64,000 nucleotides of DNA from Branchiostoma lanceolatum (taxonomy: Eukaryota; Chordata; Leptocardii; Amphioxiformes; Branchiostomatidae), in assembly GCF_035083965.1 (NCBI RefSeq), contig NC_089730.1:16041242-16105241 (forward strand), written 5' to 3'. Under the pieces are notes generated by a model. The model ran no database searches, was not told the origin of the DNA, and saw only the letters and a program-made list of their open reading frames with translations. Numbering within the stretch: the first letter of the stretch is position 1; each line of letters starts with the position of its first letter. This document shows, one piece after another, positions 4,736-61,480 of this stretch. The translations under genes and the position numbers were made by a program.

Positions 4736-7043
4736 AACTAGAAAGGCCACCATTTGCCCCTGAGCAAATACAGCATGTTTAGCCATACTCCTCCCCATGC
4801 AAGAAGTGTGCTGTCCCAAAATAACACCTGGGCAAATCAAAATATTAACTGCATGTAGAAAGTCAATATTTGCGAGAGCATCATACTTCGCCAATCTCCC
4901 TCCCGATGCATAAATTGACTGTTCCAAAATCACCCGTGCAAAACAATTCTCTCTACAAGTTCTGCGAGACCCCAAGAGCTTCTTACTGCAAAGGCTTGCG
5001 TGTGTTCCTGCAATATGACCTCAGGTAACCTAAATAGAACACGTGTTTTTTTGGCCAGTAGCAAATGGAACGTGGGGATCCTTAGATAGAACATGGATTC
5101 TTTGGCCAGCAGCAAATAGAACATGGAACGGGGATACCACTTTTGGCCTGTTTTTGGTCTGAAATGGGTCCAAAAGTCCCCAAAATGAAGCATTTTGAAG
5201 TGATGTACACCAGAATTGTGATTGAAATCCTGTAGGGACATGTTCAAGGCGCCCTTGTACCGAATGTCAGGTCATTTGCTTCTAAAACCAGGCCACAGGA
5301 GACCAAAATGTAATTTTTGCCTAAAATGCCCCCAAAAAACCCCATAAAAATGATTTTCAGGCCTGTTTCAAAAAAATGAAAAAATCGCATGAGGGTATTT
5401 GCCTTCTTTACCTCCATGCCAAATTTCAGGTCGGCTGATTAAAAAATGGCAGAGTTGAATCAATTTGAAGATTTGGCAGAAGAAGGAGAAGAAGAAGAAG
5501 AACGTGAACACTAGAAAGGCCGTCATTTGCCCCTGAGCAAATACAGCATGTTTAGCCATACTCCTCCCCATGCAAGAAGTGGGCTGTCCCAAAATAACAC
5601 CTGGGCAAATCGAAATATTAACTGCATGTAGAAAGGCAACATTTGCGAGAGCATTATACTTCGACAATCTCCCTCCTGATGCATAAATGGACTGTTCCAA
5701 AATCACCCGTACAAAAACTCTCTCTACAAGTTCTGCGAGACCCCAAGAGCTTCTTACTGCAAAGGCTTGCGTGTGTTCCTGCAATATGACCTCAGGTGAC
5801 CTAAATAGAACAGTGTTCTTTGGCCAGTAGCAAATGGAACGCGGGGATCCTTAGATAGAACATGGATTCCTTGGCCAGCAGCAAATAGAACATGGAACGT
5901 GGATACCACTTTTGGCCTGTTTTTGGTCTGAAAATGGGTCCAAAAGTCCCCAAAATGAAGCATTCTGAAGTGATGTACACCAGAATTGTGATTGAAATCC
6001 TGTAGGGACATGTTCAAGGCACCCTTGTACCGAATTTCAGGTCACTTGCTAGCAATACCAGGGCACAGGAGCCCAAAATATAAAAATTGCCTAAAAATGC
6101 CCCAAAAAACCTCCATAAAAATGATTTTAAGGGCTGTTTCAAAGCAATTTTAAAATCACCTGAGGGTATTTGCTTTCTTTACCTCCATGCCAAATTTCAG
6201 GTCGGTTGGTTAAAAAATGGCGGAGTTGAATCCATTTGAAGATTTGGCAGGAGGAGAAGAAGAACATGAACAAAAACTAGAAAGGCCGTCATTTGCCCCT
6301 GAGCAAATACAGCATGTTTAGCCATACTCCTCCCCATGCAAGAAGTGGGTTGTCCCAAAATAACCCCTGGGCAAATCGAAATATTAACTGCATGTAGGAA
6401 GGCAACATTTGCGAGAGCATCATACTTCGCCAATCTCCCTCCCGATGCATAAATTGACTGTTCCAAAATCACCCGTGCAAAACAATTCTCTCTACAAGTT
6501 CTGCGAGACACCAAGAGCTTCTTACTGCAATGGCTCGCGTGTTTACCCGCAACATGACCTCAGGTAACCTGAAAAGAACACATGTTCTTTGGCCAGCAGC
6601 AAATGGAACGCCCGGAACCTTAGATAGAACATGGATTCTAAGATAGAACATGGAACGGGGACAGCACTTTTGACCCGTTTTTGGTCTGAAAATGGGTCCA
6701 AAAGTACCCAAAACGAAACATTTTGAAGTGATGTACACCAGAAATGTGATTGTAGTCTTGTAGGGACATGTTCAAGGCACCCTTGTAGCGAATTTCAGGT
6801 CATTTGCTTGTAATACCAGGGCACAGGAGCCAAAAATATAAAAATTGCCTAAAAATGCCCCAAAAAACCTCCATAAAAATGATTTTAAGGCCTGTTTCAA
6901 AGCAATTTTAAAATCACCTGAGGGTATTTGCCTTCTTTACCTCCTTGCCAAATTTCAGGTCGGTTGATTAAAAAATGGCGGAGTTGAATCGATTTGAAGA
7001 TTTGGCAGGAGGAGAAGAAGAAGAAGAAGAACATGCACAAAAA
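4736..7043. repeat. Three tandem copies of a 765-775 bp unit
   Basis: Units start at about 4738, 5512 and 6277 with CTAGAAAGGCC(A/G)(C/T)CATTTGCCC, and share more than 90 percent of their sequence by eye. Each ends near a GAAGAAGAAGAA tract. Minus-strand open frames of 85-140 codons recur in each copy, but in two overlapping frames with different ends. Their conservation is explained by copy similarity rather than by coding selection. I recognise no transposase, reverse transcriptase or capsid motif. Confidence 0.85.
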
Positions 7044-8922: not shown

Positions 8923-11924
<3,002 letters not shown>

Positions 11925-12540
11925 GGAGAAATATCTATGATTGGAAACGGGAACAAAATTGCACTCGGCGTATCCAGTCCGGGATATGCAACGTTTTATT
12001 TTCCTGAATATTTTCCGAAAATACCGAGTTTCCGGTAGCACATACGGATTTTTTCTGCTACGGACAGCCTGCATATACGGATAAATTTCTATGATTGGAA
12101 ACGGGAACAAAATTGCACTCGGCGTATCCAGTCCGGGATATGCAACGTTTTATTTCCTGAATATTTTCCGAAAATACCGAGTTTCCGGTAGCACATACGG
12201 ATTTTTTCTGCTACGGACAGCCTGCATATACGGATAAATTTCTATGATTGGAAACGGGAACAAAATTGCACTCGGCGTATCCAGTCCGGGATATGCAACG
12301 TTTTATTTCCTGAATATTTTCCGAAAATACCGAGTTTCCGGTAGCACATACGGATTTTTTCTGCTACGGACAGCCTGTATATACAGATAAATTTTTATGA
12401 TTGGAAACGGGAACAAATTTCCACTCGGCGTATCCGGACTCAGATATGCTACAGTTTAGTTTCCGAATATTACCCTGAAATGCGGCACGTCTGTAACACC
12501 GAACATGCTACATTTCAGGCAGTTCTGCGTCCGCAATGTA
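11925..12540. repeat. 153-bp satellite, about 3.5 to 4 copies
   Basis: The marker TTGGAAACGGGAACAAA occurs at 11941, 12095, 12248 and 12401, giving periods of 154, 153 and 153 bp. The second and third copies are nearly identical; the fourth diverges after about 35 bp. Units are dense in TTTCCG/CGGAAA and ATACGGAT words, also found through 13.7-17.6 kb, so the satellite appears to be a recent amplification of one member of that family. Confidence 0.92.
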
Positions 12541-19770: not shown

Positions 19771-22700
19771 CTATGCATATCCGCTATCGTAGGTGTCCGT
19801 AAAGCCCCGCGCACCACTTGATGACATACTCGTGGTCTCGCTGTAAAGACTACCGTCCAAGTCCGCCATGGAGGCCAAACTCCTGTCTTCGCTCAACGTG
19901 GAGCGACTTCCGATCGTACTCGTTCTCCGGTACCCTTCCGCCGACTGCACACCCTGCGCTCCTTCCCCAGTCCAGTCTCCTTTATGTTTTGCACCTTCGC
20001 GGGAAATCTCCTGGCTTTTTTCTTTGCCATCTGTCTCTTCTTGTATGTCCTCTGCTTGTAACCTTTCCGAGCCCGTCAGCGACAGGCCGTCCTCTTCGAA
20101 AGCGCTCTTCATTCTACCGCGTACAGGATTGTCCGGGCCTTGTACCCACCCAAAAGTCGTGTTTGGCGAGGATCGCTGTCCGCTTGAATCTTCCGGAGGG
20201 GGTTGCAATCGTTTGACACTGTCTATGGAACTCTGGGATTCGCTACTCTCCGTACTGCTGGCTACATCCTGCGAAACCTGCCTCTCCGGTTGGCTCTTGC
20301 CCATGGAGATATTTTCGCTGGAGAGTTTTTCCCGATTTCTGCAAAGACAAGTGATGACACATACGATCAATGTAAGCAATTATCAACAATCTTCTAGTCA
20401 AAACAGCTATCATCATGATACAAATGGTTCTAGATCAATTCAGAGAAACCTTAACAATTACATGCAAGCACCTGACAGTCTCCCAAATCTATTATGTTTA
20501 AAAGGAGGAAAAAAAAAATCTAAGGCACTTTTGCTTGCAGAACAATTTCATACAACTTTAGAGCATGATGAAATACTTGAAGCATGAAATAACGATACAG
20601 TTAACAACAAAATTATCTATACCCTTGCCTAGCCAATTACAGTTACAAACTTATGCTGTTAACTGTAAATTTCTGTATAACAATTTAGATATACATTACC
20701 TGTGGTATCCCTTCCCTTCTAGTTTACTGTAGAGCTTTAGTATCTGATTCTCCATCTGTTGACAGATCCTCTTCAGAGAGTTGTACTTCTGTTCCATGGC
20801 CTGGAGCTGACCGCGGGAAAGGCTCTTCACGCTCTCCAACATACGCTTCTGTTCCAGCGCCACCACCTCGCGGTTCCCCAGGGCGTCCTCCAGCTCCGAG
20901 ATTCTCCTCTTCGCCATCTCACGTTCTGTTCGCTCTGTGTGGACCGTCTCTTTCAGACCTGTACCACGAAGGGACAAGACAGCTTCAGCAAACTTTTCAA
21001 ACCATAAAAACAGTCTTGTGTACCAAACTCCCTTCGAAACTTGAGCCTGGAATCCATCCCTACCGTAGCTTAGTCCATTGTACCTTGGATAAACTGGACC
21101 TAAGATTGAGATAGATACCAGGCTATCAAAACTTAACTTTTCTTTCACTCCTATTTCATTATGACCAAATCACAAATTACTCATAGACTGAATAAAAAGA
21201 CCATTAGTGATTTAATCAACCAACATTTCAGTGACCATCTGTCACCTTCCTCAGGGCAATTCTGACAGAAGGTGACAGATGGTCACGGAAACAGTGAATA
21301 AAACACTTGGTTGTGTACAAAGACTCTCTTTATTCAGTGACTTACCGATTGCAACCTGATGAAACTATTCACAGATAACTCATAAAGATTGTACATGTAT
21401 GCATACAGTACATATTAGAAAAGACATTAATTTTTTAAAATCCATTTATTTTACTTTTGACACAGCTATCAGGAAACTGTTCTAGAAAACCTCTTAAAGT
21501 CTCCATCAATTTCCTTCCATGGATTACCATTGACTGAGCTCACCTGCCAGTTCAGCCTTGGCTGCGGCCAGCTGGGCGCTACAGTTGGCCTCCTTGTTGT
21601 TGGTAAACTTCATCAGGTCCAGTCTGTCGTCATACTTCTGCTGGAGCTCGCCCATCAGCAATAGCTGTCTGTAATAACAACATTAATATTTATCAGGGGT
21701 TTTTGTAGAAAAATTGAATAAGAGGGAGCACACACAGGCAAGGGAGTAAATTCTATGTGTTTATGGAAGAGTCAATCGCTGAGTGACGGCTGTATGCTGG
21801 ATATTAAGCTAAAATCTGAATTCGACAAGGGGGCGCTGGGCTGAAACAAGAGGGCGCAGCGCCCCTCTTTCCTGATTTAGATGAACCCCTGTTTATTGTT
21901 AATACAAAGTGATACTGAGATGGGCTCTATACTGTTCTTATATCCATATGAAATTTAAAGACGGTTTGACAGGACTTGGGACATTTTGCCTAGAGGTAAA
22001 TTTGAGAATGCTCTATCCTTCCTAAATGTAGACCTCCTTTACATGGTGGTACAGTTTAGAATAGTCCTTCATCATGCGCTCATTGAAAGAGTGAAATATC
22101 CTGTATTTGATTGCAAATGTTTTCTTTCTAGTTCATGTTTCATTTCAGGAGTTCTACTAAGCATATATTCTTTCATCGTCCTCTCTTTCTTTCATTTCTT
22201 TGTTCATTCTCCTCCTAGTTTTCTTGTAAAATGTATCCAAGAATTGTAACATACATGTACATTGTACACAAAGACAGAGTGTGTACCTGTTGAGTGCCTC
22301 GACCTGCTGTTTGAGGTCGTCGGTGTGAGCGACCTTCTCTGCCATGTCGCACAGCTCACTCTCCATGGTGAACAGACGAGCGCTCGACGCCTTTAGCTCC
22401 TTCTTCTGTCTCTCCAGGTGCTCCTCTTTAGCTGCCATTGACTGTTTCAGGTCTTCAACCTGTCAGTCAGGACAACAAGGAGAATTTCTAGATATGCAAG
22501 ACCAATTATAAGACTTCTATTTCTAGTACTATAGGAATGTTAACATTAATAACACCTTAGACGACTATTCCTAGCTAAAAAAATGAAGAAGCCATGAGAG
22601 GAATTTTCTGTATCTCAATGACAGACTTTTGAGGCACAAATACAGCAGGGAAAGAGTGTTGTAGGAGAAGGTAAGAAATGCTGCCCCTATTTTCAGAAAA

Positions 22701-25700
22701 ATGTCAAATACATGACCTTCAAATCTAAACACTCATACTGTCATAACATTCACATTTGAATGATAAGGATATCAGCAAACATGGCAACAGTAAAACCCAC
22801 TGTTTAAGTTAGCATTCATTCACTCATTCATTGAATTTCATTCAGTATACAGTAACTGGATTTTAAAAAACATGTATGGGAAAACCTCTAAGTGTATCAT
22901 AAGTTCCCCCTTTTAAAGCTATTTCTGACCTGTGCATGTAGTCTGTCTTTCTCCTGCAGGTACTGTCTGGTGTTCAGCTGTAGTTCTGCATCTTTCCTCT
23001 CTAGTCTCTCCATCAGGTCCTTCCTCTCCCCCCACAGTTGTCTCAGCTCAGACTTCTGACTCGCTATCTCCTTCTCCTGCAGTTGTAACTGGGAAGGTGC
23101 AGTATAGATGGCCATTAGACAGGCTTTTAGCTAGGATTTATAGACAGCCCATCCATCCAAATAAATAAAGGGGGGGAGGTGGGGACTTCCCCAATTGGCT
23201 CTATGGATTAATAATTACCCGGAAGCCTTGCATGTCAACCAATTTGCATGCTGTCCTAGTGTCTGGTATGAGGAAAAAACAACAACAAAAAACATGTGCA
23301 TGTGAGAGAACACATGCACATGTTTATGTAATTAACAGGGAAACAGGGTGTCCTCTGGGTGTTCCCTGCAAGGAGGGCATCTAATTCTTTGTTTTCTTAG
23401 TGTATGGTGTCCAGAAGATGCCCTGATGCTATGCTACATGTAGATAATAGCCTGGTACAGTACATACCTGATCCTGCATGGCGACGTTCTGTTCCTCCAT
23501 GGCCCGAGCCTTGAAGGTCTTCCCCAGCAGGCGCCTGTTCCTCTGGGCGTGTAGATCTCGCTTGTGTCTCTCAAACAGCAGCTGGTTATGGAGTAACAGG
23601 AGCTGGTCCTTCAGGATGGTCACCTCATCAGCCGGGGGCGCTCCTGTGTGTGACAGGGACATTTCATAGCTTATGTCACATCAAAAAAGTCAAAATTCCT
23701 TCCCGCACCGATGGTGCATAGGTTGGTGCCCATCTACGTTTCAGTAGCCCTTGGGCCACACAACTTTGTGCAATCACTACAGCACGGGGCTAGTCCACTG
23801 GTAGGTGTTTAAATTCTATACTCTTTTCCAAATGCTGAGTGCTAAGCAGAGAAAGCAGTATGTACCATTTTTAGAGTCTTTGGTATGACCCGGTCGGGGA
23901 TCGAACTCACAACCTACTGTATGCAATGCAAAGTAACATTCTACCCATTAGTCCATATCAGGGGGAGCTAAACATGAAATTGAAAAACCTACTATGCTAT
24001 ACTAATGCTATATATACCACAAAGTTATAAGTTCTCACTTGTTATAAAATACCTCTGTTATAGTTCAGGGCTCTCTGACCATTTGCAACTTGCCATTTGC
24101 CGACGGCTACTTGACTGACTGACTGATTGAATTTGGTGACGTCAGGAAGCAGCATGTCCCCATCAGTTCTGATCTATATGACTAAAGCTTTTCGAGCTGG
24201 CTTACCTTGTAGACCTTCCCATCATTGACCGTAACTTGGAAACGCCCGCTAACTCTCGTCGATTCCTCTAATTCCTGAAAGTTTTACAAAGTCCATCCTC
24301 AGGAAAGCCAGCTCGAAAAGCCCAATTCATATACACATTGTATATCAGAACTCATGGGGGGGACATGCCGGACATAACTCTTTGGCAGTCCAGTCTTGAA
24401 AGACGCAACATAACAGACATAACAGACTCAAAGGAACAGTACCCCCAAAGTGTGTCCAGTTGATAGAGTCCAGTTTGTTGACCAGTGGTATTCTGCTGAG
24501 TTCTTTGGAGTGGACGTCCCCTCCCAACTCGATGTGTCTATCCAACACTTCTAAAGGAGAGACCTCACTAAACATTGACACTGCACTGTCCCTCTGTGAG
24601 GGGTAAGAACACTTATCCTCCCCGTCAGCAGGAATGGAACGCTCCAGACTGGATTCTCTGTGTATCACTTCAGATGGAAACTGTAGAGCCAGCGGGATTA
24701 AGTGCTCGTACGGCTCTGTGAAAGTTTGCGTCACGGAATCCCGTACTTTGTGTGGCGTGCTCGTGTCCATTCGTGCCTCCTCTTCTTGAATCGGCGTGAA
24801 ACCTCTTTCCTTCTCCTCAAAGTTTTCTACACTCTCTTGAAGTCTTTGCTGAACGTTTTCCTGCTTAAGTTCTGCTCTTTCACAAGTTTTACCTTCAAAG
24901 CTGGTTACTGAATTGTTAGGTGATTTTTCTACATCTTTAGGCACCGAGTCTGTAACAACGTCATCGGATCCGGAGGTGTCCGCAACCGAGTTGTCTGTCA
25001 GACTCCCGTTGGATTCGTCTAGCGGAGGTATCTTCAGCCTTGCGAGGTTTGCTGGCCTCTTGAACGCACTTGCAAAATTTGGCACGTTCGGGCTGATCAT
25101 CGCCGAATCAGAGGGCACGAATTTGTCGCCTCTGGTCAACGGCGGATACGACTTGTATCTCATCCTAGGGAGCTCGGATGGGTCCACTATGGTGTCCGAT
25201 GTCACATGGCCGCGGATCTGTTTCACACGCGCCATGAAGGTGGCGGCGGATTTGGCAGTATCGTAGGATATCAGGTTGGAGTCTGATTGGTTGGTTTGAA
25301 ACTGGTCGGAGATCTCCTGTTGGCCGTCCTGGTCGGGCGTGACCAGTCCTTCCTGGGGGTACCTGGACGCTCCTGGGGGTCAAAGGTTACAGAAAATGTT
25401 TTAGCGATGAAGAAATGAAGGAACTTGAAAAAAATGCTTGATTCAACCAGTGCTTTTCTCACCACTACACAAGTAGGAATGAGTTTTGAGAAACCGACAC
25501 ATACATACTTACAGGAAGACATTTTTGATAGAATAGATACTGTGAAAATAAAATATAAAGTATTGTTCCCCATTAAAATTTTTTTCTAGATCTTTGTAAG
25601 AAAGAGCTAACCTTGCAATTGCTGGCCCCATATATAGAAATGGAATCGATCAGATTCAGAAGTGCACCATCTCAAAAAGGCTCCACTCCTAAAGTAATGC

Positions 25701-28700
25701 CAAAATTCAGATTTGTATTGATCCTTCATACAGATGATAGGGTACCTGTGAGATTGGCAGTTGTGTTGTGGAACTCGTCCTCTGGAGTTCTGGCCGCATC
25801 TTGGCTGGACTGGCCTTTATCTGTGATCTCACTCACCTCCAAATTAGCAGCTTCTACAAACGGAAACAGGAAACTTCACACAATCTACATGCATAGATTT
25901 TTACCAGGGAACAATAAATAACAACAACAGAACATTGTGAAATCATCTGGGCCATAGATGGGCTACAAAATTGAATATCAGAATTTAGACTTGGCACATA
26001 CAATATAAGTTATACACCTTAGCATGAATGCTCATCTTTTTAACTATTGGTACATTCCATGATGAAATTTGATACTTTCGTTCAACACATGAAGAAGGTT
26101 GACGTAAGAGCGACTGAAATCCGAGGTGAGCTACATTTCCTTGCATTGAACAAAAGTATCAAACTTCATCAATTAAGTTAGGCACCTTACTTCAAGAAAA
26201 CGCCTTCAATGTGTCTTAGGTATAAAGAGCAATCCTCACCATCTAAGTCTTTGTCTACATCCAGACCTGTGGAAGACGACGGCCCCACTACTTCCAGGGA
26301 CGACCCGTGTTCCGACAGTTTCTCCACAACTTGGCTCAGATTCTCTGGCGTCAAGATGTCCTTAGAACTTTTCCCTTGATCCTCCTCCCTCTCCTGGGAG
26401 TGGAACGTTCCAGCACACTGCTGGCTCTCCGTCAGGTCCAGTCCACTTTGGGGAACCTTGGGGAAGGAAGGGGTGTCCTGTTCTGTAGTCGGTTCTGCGG
26501 TTAGCGGAGCACTTTGACTTTTTTCTGCTGCACCGGTGCCCCCGGAGTCTTCTCTCGACAACGGAGAAACAGGCGTAGAATTGCTCAAGGGAAGTTCAGG
26601 CATCTGCCCCTGGGGAGCACTAAAAAATCGCTGAAATATTTGAGTTCGCGATCTCGGAGACATGGGCGGCTTAGACATGAGATTTTCTTTGCTTGTCTTT
26701 TTGGGTGTGGACCCGGGTGCCTCTCCCCCCACGGTAGGGGGTGATTCAGAAGGAGTAGCCATGGGGGTGGGGGTGTTAGCAGCAGAAGACAGCACAAAAC
26801 TGTGGTGTAAAGCCGACGACGATGTCAGCTCGAGATGGCTGCTGGCAGGGGACATTCCATGGGAGTGTGGAGGGGTGGACAGCCCGCAGATGTTGGAGGG
26901 ACTCCAAAACGGAGGAGAATCGCTTGGCCTATGGGCAGAAGACTTCCTTTTATGGCTTTCATCTACAAGACTGGCTTCTATGGAATGGACAGAGACACAA
27001 TAAAATGTTATGGTTTGGGACATCTTTTCAACTTCCGAAGCAATAAATCTGAAATACTCTGGTATTAGCAACATGCAGTAGCTTCAGTCATTTTAGCCCT
27101 GAGGAAGCCAGTAGACTGTGAGACTACTGTAATGTAAGAAGAACTTAGTAGCGTATAAGAAACTTCAATATCCAAACCACTGCAATGATTTCGTACATTT
27201 TGTAGACACTGGTTTACTGCAGACCCTGGTTCATTATCTCCATGAAAAAAGGCTTTTTCATGGATATACTGTTTTGCTTGCGTTTGGTGTTTGTGTGTAT
27301 GTATGTGTCACCGGATGCTTAAAGTCACCATAACTGTAGAACCTGTACATGGATTGTAATGATTTTTGGTATGTGGGTGGGTGTTAAGAGGAGGAAGGTC
27401 AAGGTCGATTTTGGGCCCCCTGGCATTTGTGATTGGAACTGCAATGGCGTATTTTTAAAAATCTTCAATGTAGAAGAACTGAAGAGAGGATCAACAGATC
27501 GTCATGTTATTTGGTACACAGGTAGGTTAGACCAAGATGTACACACTTAAGTTCAAACTATGCAAATGAGACCAAATTTGCATAAGTAAGGAGGTAAATC
27601 GTTTGCATGTGTGTCGCTGGATGCTTAAAGTCAGCATAACTGTAGAACGTGTAGATGGATTGTAATGATATTTGGTATGTGGGTATGCGCTGGGAGGAGA
27701 ATGGTCAAGGTCGATTTTGGGCCCCCTGGTTTGTGTCCCTGGAACTACAATGGCCTATTTGTAAAAATGTTCTAAAGGGGTATAACTGAAGAAAGGAACA
27801 ACAGATTTCCATGTTATTTGGTACGCAGGTAGGTTGGACAGAGATGTACACACTGAAGTGCAAATCATGCAAAGTTAGTGTGTTTGTGTGTGTGTGCGCG
27901 TGTGTGTATGTTTGTGTCACCGTGTGTGTATGTATGTGTCACCGGATGCTTAAAATCAGCGTAACTATAGAACGTGTAGATGAATTGTAATGATATTTGG
28001 TATGTGGGTAGGTGTCGGGAGGAGAAATGTCAAGGTCGATTTTGGGCCCCCTGGTATGTGTCACTGGAACTGTAATGGCGTATTTGTCAAAATCTTCAAA
28101 GGAGAATAACTGAAGAAAGGAGCGACAGATTTTCATGTTATTTACTATGCAGGTAGCTTAAGCAGAGATGTATACAATGAACTGCAAATTATGCAAATTG
28201 GACTTAATTTGCATAAGTAATGAGGAAAATCTATATCTGCAGTGTTGTCATGTGGCACCCCACCTGTCAGTAGCTATTTATAGCGAAAGTAGGTCAGACT
28301 TCTCCCCTTGCAGTGTGGGTCATACTATTGAGGGATATAGAATAGGGGGAACTGGTTTAATAGAAAAACAACGTTTCATGGAGATTTTGGGTCCTAAGAC
28401 TCTTGTTTAGCACTGTAGCTGCTTTTGGATCGCATCTGTAAGCTGTGACATCTACATGTACATGTATAGCTGAAGTGCTAAATGAACCAGTCAGAATTAC
28501 CCTGAGGAATTCGAAGGGGACAGACAGTCACTGAAAAGTTGGTTGTCAACACTTAGTTGTGTGCAAAGAGTCTTTTTATTCAGTGATTTACCAACCTGAT
28601 GAAACTATTCACGGAAAAAATGTAAGGATACACTAACCTGCACTGGGCATGGGCGAGAAGGAGTAGTTGAGGGAAGTGTTGAGTTGGGAGGGTTCTCTGG

Positions 28701-54324: not shown

Positions 54325-54570
54325 TGGCGGGGTCACAGCTTTCTCGACTTCACATGTCAAACTCGTCAACAGATTTTCCAACTTGTTCCGCGGTTGGGGA
54401 GGGTAGGATGACGACATGTTCCTGCGGCTCAAGGTGAGAGGATTGGACTACTCGCGTCAAGATTTGAACATCGCCAGGTATAGATCTTTGCCTCACGAGC
54501 AGGCAGAGAAAAATGAAGCAAACTACCTGCTTCTGAAGAATTCGCTAACGAGGTATCTGCAAGACGGACT
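54325..54570. repeat. Upstream copy of the direct repeat that flanks the CARD/NB-ARC gene
   Basis: GGCGGGGTCACAGCTTTCTC through ACGAGGTATCTGCA aligns with 61224-61480 in the same orientation, with many substitutions and small indels (shared words include TTCCAACTTGTTC, GTTGGGG, GTTCCTGCG, GAGCAGGC, GCAAACTACCTGCTTC). 54571-55190 beyond it has nothing I recognise except a poly-T run near 54760. Confidence 0.8.
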
Positions 54571-55187: not shown

Positions 55188-55288
<101 letters not shown>

Positions 55289-55593: not shown

Positions 55594-58500
55594 ATGGACC
55601 CTCTCCACCGCCAGGCCGTGCTAGACTGCTATGACTACATTGTCCGTGACATGGACCCGGGCCTGGTCCTGCGGTACAGCACGGTCCGATGGGGGGATGA
55701 GGACCCAGGGATCATCCGGGCCAAGGCGAGGAAGGATGGACCACACTCCGGGGCTAGGGCGCTGCTGGACACGCTGATGGGTAGGTTTACAAACTTAAGG
55801 GTCGTTTTCAAATCCATGTAGAATCAACTACACTAGTCAAAAGTAGTGGATCAACGACAAACTGAGATTGCTAACACGATCGATGTTGCACAGGTTGCAG
55901 TCCTTTGTTCTGAGGGTAGCAACAGCCTCAAGCCACTAAAAGTACAGAACTGCGGCATTACCTCATGGGGCAGTTGTTTAGTTAAGATCAAGACATGGCG
56001 ACATGCTATCATGTATCATACTAATCTTACTAAGCGTTTGTCGCCTCAACATAGATTTACCTGAGTACGACGCTTTCGACGACTTTGTCAAAGACCTGGG
56101 GGAAGTTCCGTACGATCACCTGATCAAAAAACTACGGGAGACTCTGAAACGTCTTGAGACCGCAGTGGAGAAGGGGGAAATAAGAATGGAGGATCTTGGA
56201 AGGCGTCTGCAAGGTATATGCGTGTAAACAATTAACTAAAACATCTTGCACGTTTGCGCTGCCGAGCACGCTGCAAGTACTTAACAGTTAATTTGCCGTC
56301 AAGAGTTATCAATCTGCTTTGCACACATTTTTCTCATCCACAGCAGATTAATCTTAAACTTGGGGCTCCAGAAATTCTTTCTATTTCATTACTTGTACGT
56401 TTTCCCCATGCTGTTTTAGTACCAGTCTTGAAGTTGTACTGACTGCCATTGCCATAGTCGCCATGATTGCAGTTTGTTCAATGACCGTGTCAAAGGTAAA
56501 CAAACATGGCCTCTTGTGTACAATGCACGTTGGGTGCTAACACTGTGTAAATCATTCTGGTGTTCCGGATGTCATTGGGGCAAGTTATGATGTTATTTTT
56601 CTTCCTATTCTTTCCTTGGCTGTCATAGAGTTAAACTGATGTTATCTGAGGATACCCCAACTGGAATATCGTATAAACGGTTGCTAGAAATGAATGCGTT
56701 ACCTGGTTCCTTTTGCACATGATTAGACGACTTGTCAACGCAAAGGGGATTAAGATGTTGTTCATGTTGTATACCGTGTGTTGCAGAGGTCACCAGGTGG
56801 ACAACAAACAGAACGGGAGCCTTAGTTTTTGGCATCCTGATGACCAGTTTCGTGATCTGTACCTTGATGTACACGGCTCATTACGATTCCAAAATAGATG
56901 GTGAGTTTCCGTTTCTTCATTTTTTTACCATAAAGACACATAATCTTTTCAGTCTACGATGGTTTTAACCTCGGTTAAACAATACAGCGCTTTACAGAAT
57001 ACAGAATTACTGATACTATCTAGCTCCATATCCTTATCTAAACAGAAAAGCTATATTTTTACAACAGAATCAAACTTCCTGGCTGTCTTTCCCCGCCGTC
57101 TGAAGACGTTCGTGGGACGAGAAGACATCTTCAGCAGGATTGACACCTGTCTTCAAGAAAACCAGACCTGCCTCATCAAGGGCCTGGGAGGTGTCGGGAA
57201 GACATCAGTAGCCATCGAGTACGGACACAGGCGTGCGCGTGACGGGGTGTACCCTGGTGGGGTGTTCTGGGTCAGGTTAGCGAGTAAGGGAGACCTGTGT
57301 GCCAGCATCAGTCAGTACAGCTCCTACTTAAGCGATTCTTGGCACTTTAACAATGATCGTAGCTGTGTGGCTACGAAAATGTACCTTAGACGTTATATGG
57401 TAAATTCGCAAGATTGGCTTCTGGTAGTTGATGAGGCAGTTAGAGAGACCATGAAAGAGCTGGAGTCTTTTCTGCCTCACACCTTAAAGGCAACCATGCA
57501 TATTTTGCTGACTTCTAACGAATATCAAAGACTTGATAACGAGCGCATTTCCGTGGTCAATCTTCCACCGTTTAATGAAACTGAGGCTCAGGCAATGTTT
57601 GATAGAACCGTCAGACCCAGCAGTAAAGATGACAGGGCGGAGATCAAACGTCTCAGCCGATCCCTGGGCCATCATCCTCTGGCCTTGCAGTTCGCGTATG
57701 CATACATAGAAGAGACTAGATGCACTGTTAAAGAATATCATGATAAATACACTGAGGGCAACGCGATGGAGAAGGTAGACTTGCTAGATGAAGCGGACGC
57801 CGAACAATTCACAAACAGAACGATACGAGAAACATTTAGAATTAGTTTTCAATACGTGTCACAACTGTCTAGCAACGCGGCTAAGCTTTTAAACATGACA
57901 TCGATCATGGGTCCAAACTGCATTCCCTGCCCAAAACCCAATAGAAAAAGCTTTGAAAGACTATTTAATGCTCCTGGCAAATTAGACGAATTAGATATGA
58001 AAAAAATGGTTTCAGTCTTGGAGAAATTTTCCCTGGCTTCTCCTTGCCACACCTTTCAACCTTGTGCCTTTAGTGTGAACAGGATAGTACAGGAGGTTGT
58101 TGTGGCACAGATGAACGAATCCACGAGACTCGCTCATCTGGAAAACGCATTGAAATATTCCACACTGTTACTAAGGCACAGTAATGACATATCCAGGGTC
58201 CAGGCAGAGTTCTTGATGTCCCATGTGCATTACATGGCCCTTAATGTCGACAAGTACCAAATGAAAGTCTCAGTTGTCGGGTCATCCTCATTCTTAAATA
58301 AGTCCGCTGAGTTTTTTTGTCGATGGGGTGCATGTGAAGAGGCTTACTTTTTCCTCCAGGCTCAAATGCTACTACTTTCCAGGCATGATTCCATCTATGA
58401 CCTTTCCTATCATCTTCGTGACCATGTAAACTTTGTTAACAACACTCTGCTGTCATGTTTGTACAAGGGTGATGAACCTGTTGAATTACTGACACAAATA

Positions 58501-60597
58501 GCTGATAACCTGAATTCGCAAGCAGGGAAGCTGACGGGCATGCTGGGACAAATGCATCCCGCGTCCAATGCCACAGCTGCAGATTCGCATTTTCTGTGTG
58601 AGGTTTTGACTTCACTGAGAATCACGACTCATTCTATTTATTGGCGACTTCTCCAGGGTGGGAAATGGAACATCGACTATTCCAACATTCCTTATTCCTT
58701 CTTTGAAAGTTTTGTTATCTACATTCGTGAAACGTCACTTGAAAATTTGGACAGTCTTTTTATTCCAAACCCGGCACCAAAGACACCCCCAGCACAATAC
58801 TGGAGTGGGGTAAATATTTTCTATTCAGCTGTAGTGTCGTTACTGGACCCGCAAAACCAGCATTTCTTCAATGACTATTTTGCCATCAGGGATTTTAACA
58901 AGCTACCACATGAGATACAACAGTGTGATGAAGTAACGTGTGATTATGAATCAAAAGACATGGACTCGTGTCGATGCTGTGTCCTAGAGAACCTAATGCA
59001 TGACATGCAGTGTGAACAAGTGAAATGCAATCAGGAAACAGAAGAAGACGTGCAATCACAATGTTGTTATATCAAAAAGACGTTCCTTTACCAATGCAAG
59101 GACGTCAAGTGCACCTATAATACAAAAGCATGCGATTGTTGCCTCCTGATTGAGGTGTCAAAGAAACATTTGCAAAGCTACAGGAGTCTCATACAGAAAT
59201 TAGTAAAGGTTATGGGTAAGGTACTGCACATGTACTACCGATCCATGGACACGTCTACATGTACCAATAGATACTATGAAGTGATGTTAGGGCTGCCCAG
59301 GGAGAGTAAAAAGTTTGACATATTAGAATTTGCGCGCGATACCTGGAACGATCTGTTAGGAGATCCTGGAGTGTTGAAAAGTGTATTGTCCCTTACAAGC
59401 ACACACCATTCAACGCACGGTTCTATTCCCCCTTTAGCATACCACTTCAGGTTACATTTTGAAATAAGCTGGGACAATCTAGCAGCCACTGCTAGGAAAG
59501 CTACTGGCCAGACCACAGCTCATAGGTCCGACCATAGTCAGTCTCCGTCCATGTTAATAAAAAAATGCGTCGCTCTATCGGATGCCATACTTTTAGCAGA
59601 AAAGAACTACCTGAATAACTATAAGGGCAGCACGTGGAAACGGCTTCACATGCGTTTCGGAGAAATCAAGCAAATAGTAGCTGATTGCTACAGACTTTAT
59701 CATTCATATGGACCTCGGCTTACAAACCTGATCATGAGGTTCCACCACCGGATAAGGTCTTCGTCGGAAACAATGAAACTCTTAGACAACACAATTTCTA
59801 AAGGCAGAAAGCTTTTGAGCTGGCAAGACACTTCAAATGCCCCCGATGCTTTTCAGATCGAAAAGACTCTCAAACGATTTCTAATTCAGCTAGACCAGCA
59901 CCTTATATTAGTTACGGAAACAGATTGTGATGCTGAGAAATCTCAAAATCTTAGATTCCGTTTCCAGAGACTGCATGTCCCGTTTGATCAAAGTAGGCAT
60001 TTTTTGGAATCAATCATAAAAAGACTTAACCTCATAAGGCATGACGGTAACATGTATGTTATAAAAGCTAGAAAGTTGCAAAATGAAAAGACGATTCAAA
60101 AGAGCAAATATTACCACGCTATGTCAGAACTTTTCAATTGCATTAGTACTATATACTTACGTCGCAGGACTGGAAATCCCTTTGTTGACATGGGCTTTTC
60201 ACCTGAATATCCCCACATAGGAGCTTTCTTAACTCGAAAAAGTGTCTTTCCGCAAATGATGTGGCACTGGAACCGGCTGCAGGAAATGTTAGAATATGTG
60301 GACTGTTCGCTGAATCATACCAGATTGAATATGACATGCTTAACCTACTTTATCGACAGTTTGTACTGGTATGTTAACAAACTTATTTGCCCTGACGTGA
60401 GGTCAAACCTACAAAGAAATATGCTCTTTGGACAACCTCTTTCTGAAGAAGGGGGAAATTTCCGGTTTGTGTGGGAAGAGGATAAGGTTACTGGTGTTGC
60501 CCATATAGTAAGGAAAGTTTTGCTCCAGGCCCAAGGCTCTGGTTTTGAAAAGGCTGTTAGAACAAGTAAGATACAGAAGACAAAAAAGCCACCGTGA
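55594..60597 (+). CDS. CARD - two membrane segments - NB-ARC (STAND) receptor-like protein, 5 exons, 1349 aa predicted
   Basis: Exons 55594-55780, 56055-56213, 56434-56495, 56789-56900 and 57068-60597 join in frame (4050 nt). The start is in GCCATGG context. Residues 1-95 form a CARD (RQAVLDCYDYIV, ARALLDTLM, then YDAFDDFVKDLGE, DHLIKKL) split by a phase-1 intron. V116-M132 and G146-A166 are hydrophobic, predicted membrane segments separated by a short basic loop with an N143-R-T sequon. NB-ARC follows: FVGRED (188-193), P-loop GLGGVGKT (212-219), Walker B LLVVDEA (291-297), HILLTSN (318-324), GHHPLAL (374-380), and NRIVQEV (511-517), like the H-x-LVQ end of NB-ARC/TPR proteins. The remaining 800 residues are unrecognised except for a Cys-rich triplication (792-875). 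There are no WD40 or leucine-rich repeats, unlike APAF1 or NLRs. Likely a signalling STAND sensor; ligand and location are unknown. Exons 3 and 4 use less canonical acceptors and are the least certain. Confidence 0.85.
58921..59166 (+). other. Three tandem cysteine-rich units in the CARD/NB-ARC protein
   Basis: Units of 28-29 residues start at residues 792, 821 and 849 (nt 58921, 59008, 59092). Each begins QC(D/E/K)xV(T/K)C and ends with CRCC, CC or CDCC, so the pattern is C-x4-C-x(6-11)-C-x(0-1)-C(C). Unit spacing of 87 and 84 nt shows internal tandem duplication. The spacing could suit metal binding or disulphides. I match it to no named family. Confidence 0.85.
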
Positions 60598-61132: not shown

Positions 61133-61138
61133 AATAAA
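61133..61138 (+). terminator. Polyadenylation signal of the CARD/NB-ARC gene
   Basis: Canonical AATAAA 536 bp after the stop codon, followed within 30-50 bp by GT-rich sequence (GTATTTTGAAAATGTTGTC). This defines a 3' UTR of about 550 bp. Confidence 0.7.
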
Positions 61139-61223: not shown

Positions 61224-61480
61224 ATGGCGGGGTCACGGCTTTACCGCTTTCTAAGCTTCACATTCAAACTCCGTGAACGGATATTCCAACTTGTTCTGTG
61301 GTTGGGGCGGGGAGGATGACGATATATGTTCCTGCGACTCCTAGCGAGAGGCTAGGTTTTCTCACATCAAGATGGGAGAATCGTCGGGTATTAATATTTT
61401 CCTCAGGAGCAGGCTGAGAAAAATTATGCAAACTACCTGCTTCGAGAGAATGTACATTACACATTAACGAGATATCTGCA
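61224..61480. repeat. Downstream copy of the direct repeat that flanks the CARD/NB-ARC gene
   Basis: Same orientation as 54325-54570 and about 6.9 kb from it. It begins ATGGCGGGGTCACGGCTTTA and ends ACGAGATATCTGCA. The copies are clearly diverged, so the duplication is not recent. 61481-61990 has no recognised feature. Confidence 0.8.

Follow-up and report, generated by a model that had tools for sequence, protein, structure and literature searches.

A predicted lancelet gene joining a RIG-I-type CARD, a probable membrane-helix exon and an Apaf-1-class switch

Introduction

Vertebrates raise the alarm against RNA viruses with the soluble CARD sensors RIG-I and MDA5 and the membrane-anchored CARD adaptor MAVS, and the Apaf-1 apoptosis switch is separate from them. 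We asked whether a gene of the lancelet Branchiostoma lanceolatum combines such parts, and with how many membrane helices. The gene lies on the forward strand of a 64,000-nucleotide stretch of contig NC_089730.1 (positions 16,041,242 to 16,105,241; assembly GCF_035083965.1), hereafter the window, in whose numbering all positions are given. An original prediction had described a CARD, two hydrophobic segments forming a two-pass hairpin, and a complete NB-ARC NTPase. We give slightly better than an even chance to reading the locus as an animal gene of four exons that encodes a STAND ATPase of the Apaf-1 class carrying a RIG-I-type CARD; in this reading, exon 3 supplies a membrane helix and splicing would switch the platform. 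By sequence or by model, the product consists of the CARD, one membrane helix, an NBD-HD1-WHD-HD2 unit of Apaf-1 fold, helical hairpins and an orphan tail.

Results

Gene model and membrane exon

With the exons joined from the raw sequence, translation ran open between the ATG at 55594 and the last base of the stop codon at 60597. The five-exon join proposed originally (55594-55780, 56055-56213, 56434-56495, 56789-56900 and 57068-60597) was reproduced in frame, with 1349 amino acids. A four-exon join, in which 56787-56900 replaces the third and fourth of these exons, was also open and in frame (1329 residues); it is in phase 1 at every junction and is the best gene model. Leaving out 56787-56900 gave a three-exon join that was again open and in phase (1291 residues); exon 3, a phase 1-1 exon, can be skipped without loss of frame. 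The last exon is a single 1175-codon open frame without interruption. No paralog was found inside the window, as tblastn of the product returned its own exons and three further matches, all with E > 5.

Splice sites were scored with approximate vertebrate position frequencies, which serve as a ruler and not as a calibrated predictor. The acceptors at 56055, 56787 and 57068 scored 4.52, 4.17 and 3.89 bits, and the donors of exons 1, 2 and 3 scored 6.59, 4.55 and 10.28 bits, respectively. The exon 3 donor is the best of the region and lies in the top 0.3% among the 3825 GTs of the window. The intron 56214-57067 offers 21 open phase 1-1 cassettes with lengths of 60-250 nt, and in their ranking 56787-56900 came first (14.5); the runner-up (11.8) has the same donor and helix, and the best non-overlapping cassette scored -0.2. 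Window-wide, 6 of 2442 cassettes scored at least as high, exon 3 itself counted. The second hydrophobic segment of the original prediction is thus supported as an exon, now with its start at 56787.

The insertion energy, computed on an approximate biological scale without position terms, was favourable only at residues 125-147 of the 1329-residue product (-0.5), with the next best segment at +8.7. The Kyte-Doolittle (KD) hydropathy of this helix is 2.04. Codon usage gives weak support for coding; exon 3 (0.034) lies above the median (-0.065) of 200 open pieces of presumed noncoding stretches. Exon 3 is therefore a probable membrane cassette exon, its anchoring being predicted from hydropathy only. 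A passage of PMC4284660 reports that lancelet genomes shuffle 1-1 phase exons, the kind to which exon 3 belongs.

Alternatively, the gene may encode an ordinary soluble CARD-NB-ARC receptor, with exon 3 cryptic or rarely used and a working mRNA of exons 1, 2 and 4. The open, in-phase three-exon join of 1291 residues is consistent with this, no conflict of topology would arise, and in the accessible text of PMC11747288, on the Branchiostoma belcheri protein BbeApaf-J, the word "transmembrane" appears once, on Toll-like receptors. However, a cryptic exon fits poorly with the best donor of the region and with a phase that suits both sides, and we consider the soluble receptor unlikely, though a serious competitor.

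Good acceptors were also seen in intron 2 at 56344, 56420 and 56629 (10.3, 5.9 and 7.6 bits). Read in the exon 2 phase, all three soon run into stops (computed for 56420, and by eye for 56344 and 56629), and these sites could possibly belong to poison exons or CARD-only isoforms.

A RIG-I-type CARD

The predicted CARD at the N terminus was borne out: exons 1 and 2 matched Pfam CARD_2 with an E value of 1.5e-5, and in a PDB sequence search the top six matches were all RIG-I (best E 8.7e-5). The RIG-I alignment spans the junction of exons 1 and 2 with no break at that point, independently supporting that junction. No Apaf-1 CARD occurred among the 10 PDB matches at E<=5; that is, the APAF1-type comparison made originally gives way to a RIG-I-type CARD, and the CARD partner is more likely to be of the RLR (RIG-I-like receptor) or MAVS type than of the caspase-9 type.

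The switch and the tail

The NB-ARC NTPase was confirmed by intact Walker A and B motifs, Pfam and structure comparison. Seven of the eight Walker A positions (the V excepted) are conserved in 46 or more of the 50 bacterial or archaeal rows of an alignment that tests mainly model residues 1-414. The domain had been called complete; its Pfam score (22.9 bits) falls marginally under the 23.5 cut-off, whereas its predicted fold spans the Apaf-1 NBD-HD1-WHD-HD2 unit. In the first 385 residues, Pfam NB-ARC (E 5.9e-5) outscored NACHT (E 0.13). At E<=1, the Pfam matches of exon 4 were NB-ARC and other STAND/AAA models, without any DEAD/DExH helicase. A defence-system library gave a single weak match (E 0.025). 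We read VNRIVQ as the putative equivalent of the MHD motif. In plant NLRs, loss of the MHD His often leads to autoactivity.

The absence of WD40 and LRR from the tail was upheld, as Pfam listed neither of them, and no TPR family, at E<=1. The accompanying claim of no clear TPR is true of the sequence; in the AlphaFold2 model, however, the roughly 180 residues that follow the winged helix form helical hairpins, with block pLDDT (predicted local distance difference test) values of 64-93 and one block at 57. The orphan tail beyond them was modelled as helix at low confidence (pLDDT mostly < 50) and contains no Pfam family below E 0.1. Its three QCxxVxC motifs were matched in 0 of 20000 shuffles, for a pattern picked after the sequence was seen.

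Topology

A single pass would put the CARD and the ATPase on opposite sides of the membrane. The anchored form may be unusual, the helix may insert only upon activation, or exon 3 may often be skipped. PMC10952240 describes insertion on activation as a proposal for helix 1 of CC-NLR resistosomes in plants.

Over 15 flanking residues, the charges favour a CARD-in orientation, with +3 next to the CARD and -2 towards the NTPase. They are consistent with a single-pass receptor that has a cytosolic CARD, has NB-ARC and tail on the luminal or outer side and signals like a transmembrane receptor, as are the three tandem cysteine motifs of the tail. However, the charges are equal over 25 residues, the intact Walker motifs suit the ATP-rich cytosol, and the number of sequons past the helix is what chance would give; we consider such a receptor very unlikely. 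An extracellular tail argued from sequon enrichment was rejected, as the 10 sequons (8.1 expected) were reached by 557 of 2000 shuffles.

One helix or two

The first hydrophobic exon of the original prediction (56434-56495) did not hold up. Its acceptor, ending in GTACCAGTCTTGAAG at 56434, scored -0.15 bits, a value equalled or exceeded by 34.5% of the 3939 AGs of the window. The exon that followed it needs the second AG of TTGCAGAG at 56789 (-0.98 bits), whereas the AG two bases upstream, at 56787, scored 4.17. Eight open two-helix models were found in the enumerated ranges, and all need the weak acceptor at 56434; the stronger acceptor at 56420 runs into stops in the phase delivered by exon 2. 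Codon usage of the segment (-0.093) lies under the median (-0.066) of 483 presumed-noncoding pieces. Its hydropathy (KD 2.61) exceeds that of the exon 3 helix, and it ends in a fair donor (6.7 bits). The forward strand of the window holds 22 stop-to-stop stretches with KD of at least 2.2, this segment included, some of which are simple repeats.

We also considered 56420-56495 as a diverged copy of exon 3 and rejected it. The DNA similarity was reached by 451 of 500 shuffles, and the single open frame out of three does not fit the phase.

One helix is therefore better supported than two by the genomic sequence. A two-pass hairpin using both hydrophobic exons, with CARD and NTPase facing the same side, has an open 1349-residue path and would remove the conflict of topology, but it requires two poor acceptors and departs from the otherwise constant phase 1 of the junctions, so that we judge it highly improbable; an assembly indel at that place, for example, could rescue it. 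From the idea of a STAND switch with a membrane-tethered CARD, the union of CARD, membrane helix and switch in one gene survives as the best gene model, and the two-pass arrangement does not.

Features and surroundings of the gene

The features are collected in Table 1. Direct repeats at 54335-54541 and 61243-61451 (78.6% identical, 6.9 kb apart) lie on either side of the gene and may represent a duplication remnant or a dispersed element. A long GT microsatellite (55190-55287) lies about 300 bases 5' of the start codon. Elsewhere in the window, a TSC1/hamartin gene occupies about 20699-27083 on the minus strand and marks the DNA as that of an animal; Pfam assigns two of its open reading frames (ORFs) to Hamartin (3.7e-13 and 2.3e-6), and a further ORF has a PDB match to hamartin (1.1e-10). 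Extended repeats, tandem or nested, with about 80-95% identity were seen at 4737-7039, 11920-12471 and 27292-28231. Neither Rfam, at its gathering threshold, nor a tRNA scan gave a match in the 64-kb window.

Table 1. Coordinates of the predicted gene and its features
Feature	Position	Strand	Basis or remark
Coding exon 1, 5' two thirds of CARD	55594-55780	+	187 nt, ends in phase 1; ORF, donor TGG/GTAGGT, CARD_2 match
Coding exon 2, remainder of CARD and basic linker	56055-56213	+	159 nt, phase 1-1; CARD alignment, splice scores
Hydrophobic exon of the original prediction, probably not an exon	56434-56495	+	acceptor -0.15 bits; entails a second poor acceptor
Coding exon 3, single transmembrane helix (predicted)	56787-56900	+	114 nt, phase 1-1, omission keeps the frame; splice scores, cassette ranking
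Transmembrane helix (predicted), residues ~125-147	~56813-56881	+	hydropathy, insertion energy
Coding exon 4, NB-ARC, winged helix, helical hairpins, orphan tail	57068-60597	+	3530 nt including stop; 1175-codon frame
NB-ARC and winged-helix (DUF7779-like) switch	57109-58125	+	
Walker A, GLGGVGKT	57181-57204	+	prokaryote alignment
Walker B, WLLVVDE	57415-57435	+	D-N at the site in 50/50 prokaryote relatives
MHD-like motif, VNRIVQ	58075-58092	+	Asn where 49/50 prokaryote relatives have His
Helical hairpins 3' of winged helix, HD2-like then repeat-like	58117-58656	+	AlphaFold2 secondary structure
Orphan C-terminal tail, ~645 residues, no confident fold	58657-60594	+	AlphaFold2, Pfam
Three tandem cysteine motifs, QCxxVxC...C(x)CC	58921-59160	+	spacing 29 and 28 residues
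AATAAA, likely polyA signal of the gene	61133-61138	+	direct reading; ~540 bases 3' of stop

Discussion

The predicted protein resembles Apaf-1, CED-4 and Dark, the AP-ATPase class of STAND proteins, in an N-terminal CARD followed by the same predicted NBD-HD1-WHD-HD2 fold, and differs from them in its RIG-I-type CARD and in the membrane helix exon between CARD and NBD. The C-terminal WD40 propellers of an Apaf-1 ortholog were not seen in it by Pfam at E<=1. By the predicted join, it has CARD and then NB-ARC in one protein, as in the animal CARD-NB-ARC (Apaf-like) group. BbeApaf-J, as described in the available parts of PMC11747288, is a DNA-binding protein with two CARDs, an NB-ARC domain and a C-terminal region left undefined. 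Compared by that description, the two proteins share CARD-NB-ARC and an undefined C-terminal region, whereas BbeApaf-J has a second CARD and no membrane helix is mentioned there.

The comparison with MAVS in the original prediction holds in part. According to PMC4565553, MAVS/IPS-1 of B. floridae likewise has an N-terminal RLR-type CARD and one membrane helix per protein, but its middle is proline-rich and its anchor C-terminal, whereas the helix here is internal and followed by an NTPase. That is, the RIG-I-type CARD brings the protein closer to MAVS, and the position of the anchor does not. No DExD/H helicase match at E<=1 follows the CARD, as it would in a RIG-I-like receptor, and NB-ARC outscoring NACHT, with no LRR match at the same threshold, sets the protein apart from NLRs proper (NACHT-LRR).

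NB-ARC and winged helix are 20-30% identical to those of bacterial STAND-TPR proteins (FxSxx_TPR, NCBIfam NF040586), which differ in their TPR tail; the score of 150.3 bits is below the curated cut-off of 300. The FxSxx_TPR family model is not known to contain a CARD. A membrane-like segment precedes the NTPase in 2 of 80 prokaryote relatives. By eye, a Prosthecochloris plasmid relative (L001, 2593-3000) seems to have a TIR-like region before NB-ARC, and a Rickettsiales plasmid relative (L004, 2384-2480) seems to have a short hydrophobic N terminus.

Some precedent exists for STAND receptors with an RLR-type CARD; the new element is the predicted membrane helix between such a CARD and the STAND switch. 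In the titles, abstract starts and passages of the literature matches listed, no CARD-transmembrane-NB-ARC protein is described.

Several points weigh against the four-exon membrane model. The join is predicted from the genome alone with an uncalibrated splice ruler; the CARD_2 score (25.3 bits) is slightly short of the Pfam cut-off (28.2); and the codon usage of exon 3 lies below the 90th percentile (0.042) of the noncoding pieces. Exon 4, used as a single query against viral and prokaryote contig collections, found no relative. With Asn in its MHD-like motif, the switch could perhaps fail to close normally. The single-pass form carries the conflict of topology between CARD and NTPase, which the equal 25-residue charges do not relieve.

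If the four-exon model is correct, the orphan tail would sense a danger signal and keep the switch closed. Nucleotide exchange would open the switch, the protein would oligomerise, and the resulting ring of CARDs would seed a CARD filament and draw in a CARD of another protein, the RLR/MAVS kind being the likeliest. Inclusion or skipping of exon 3 would yield a membrane-anchored or a soluble form; i.e., splicing would set the location of the platform. In the anchored form, the CARD would be cytosolic with the remainder across the membrane, or the helix would be inserted on activation only.

A wider and rather improbable reading sees the gene as a pre-vertebrate fusion: a membrane-fixed CARD of the MAVS/RIG-I type would be driven by an Apaf-1-like ATPase of its own, and the cassette exon would toggle between a membrane platform and a soluble, apoptosome-like one. 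If this were true, a single molecule would unite the sensor, switch and anchored adaptor that vertebrate antiviral signalling keeps as separate proteins. A gene that combines an Apaf-1-like switch with a RIG-I-type CARD and an optional membrane helix would allow tests of how exon shuffling traded these modules and of whether a CARD platform can be relocated through alternative splicing.
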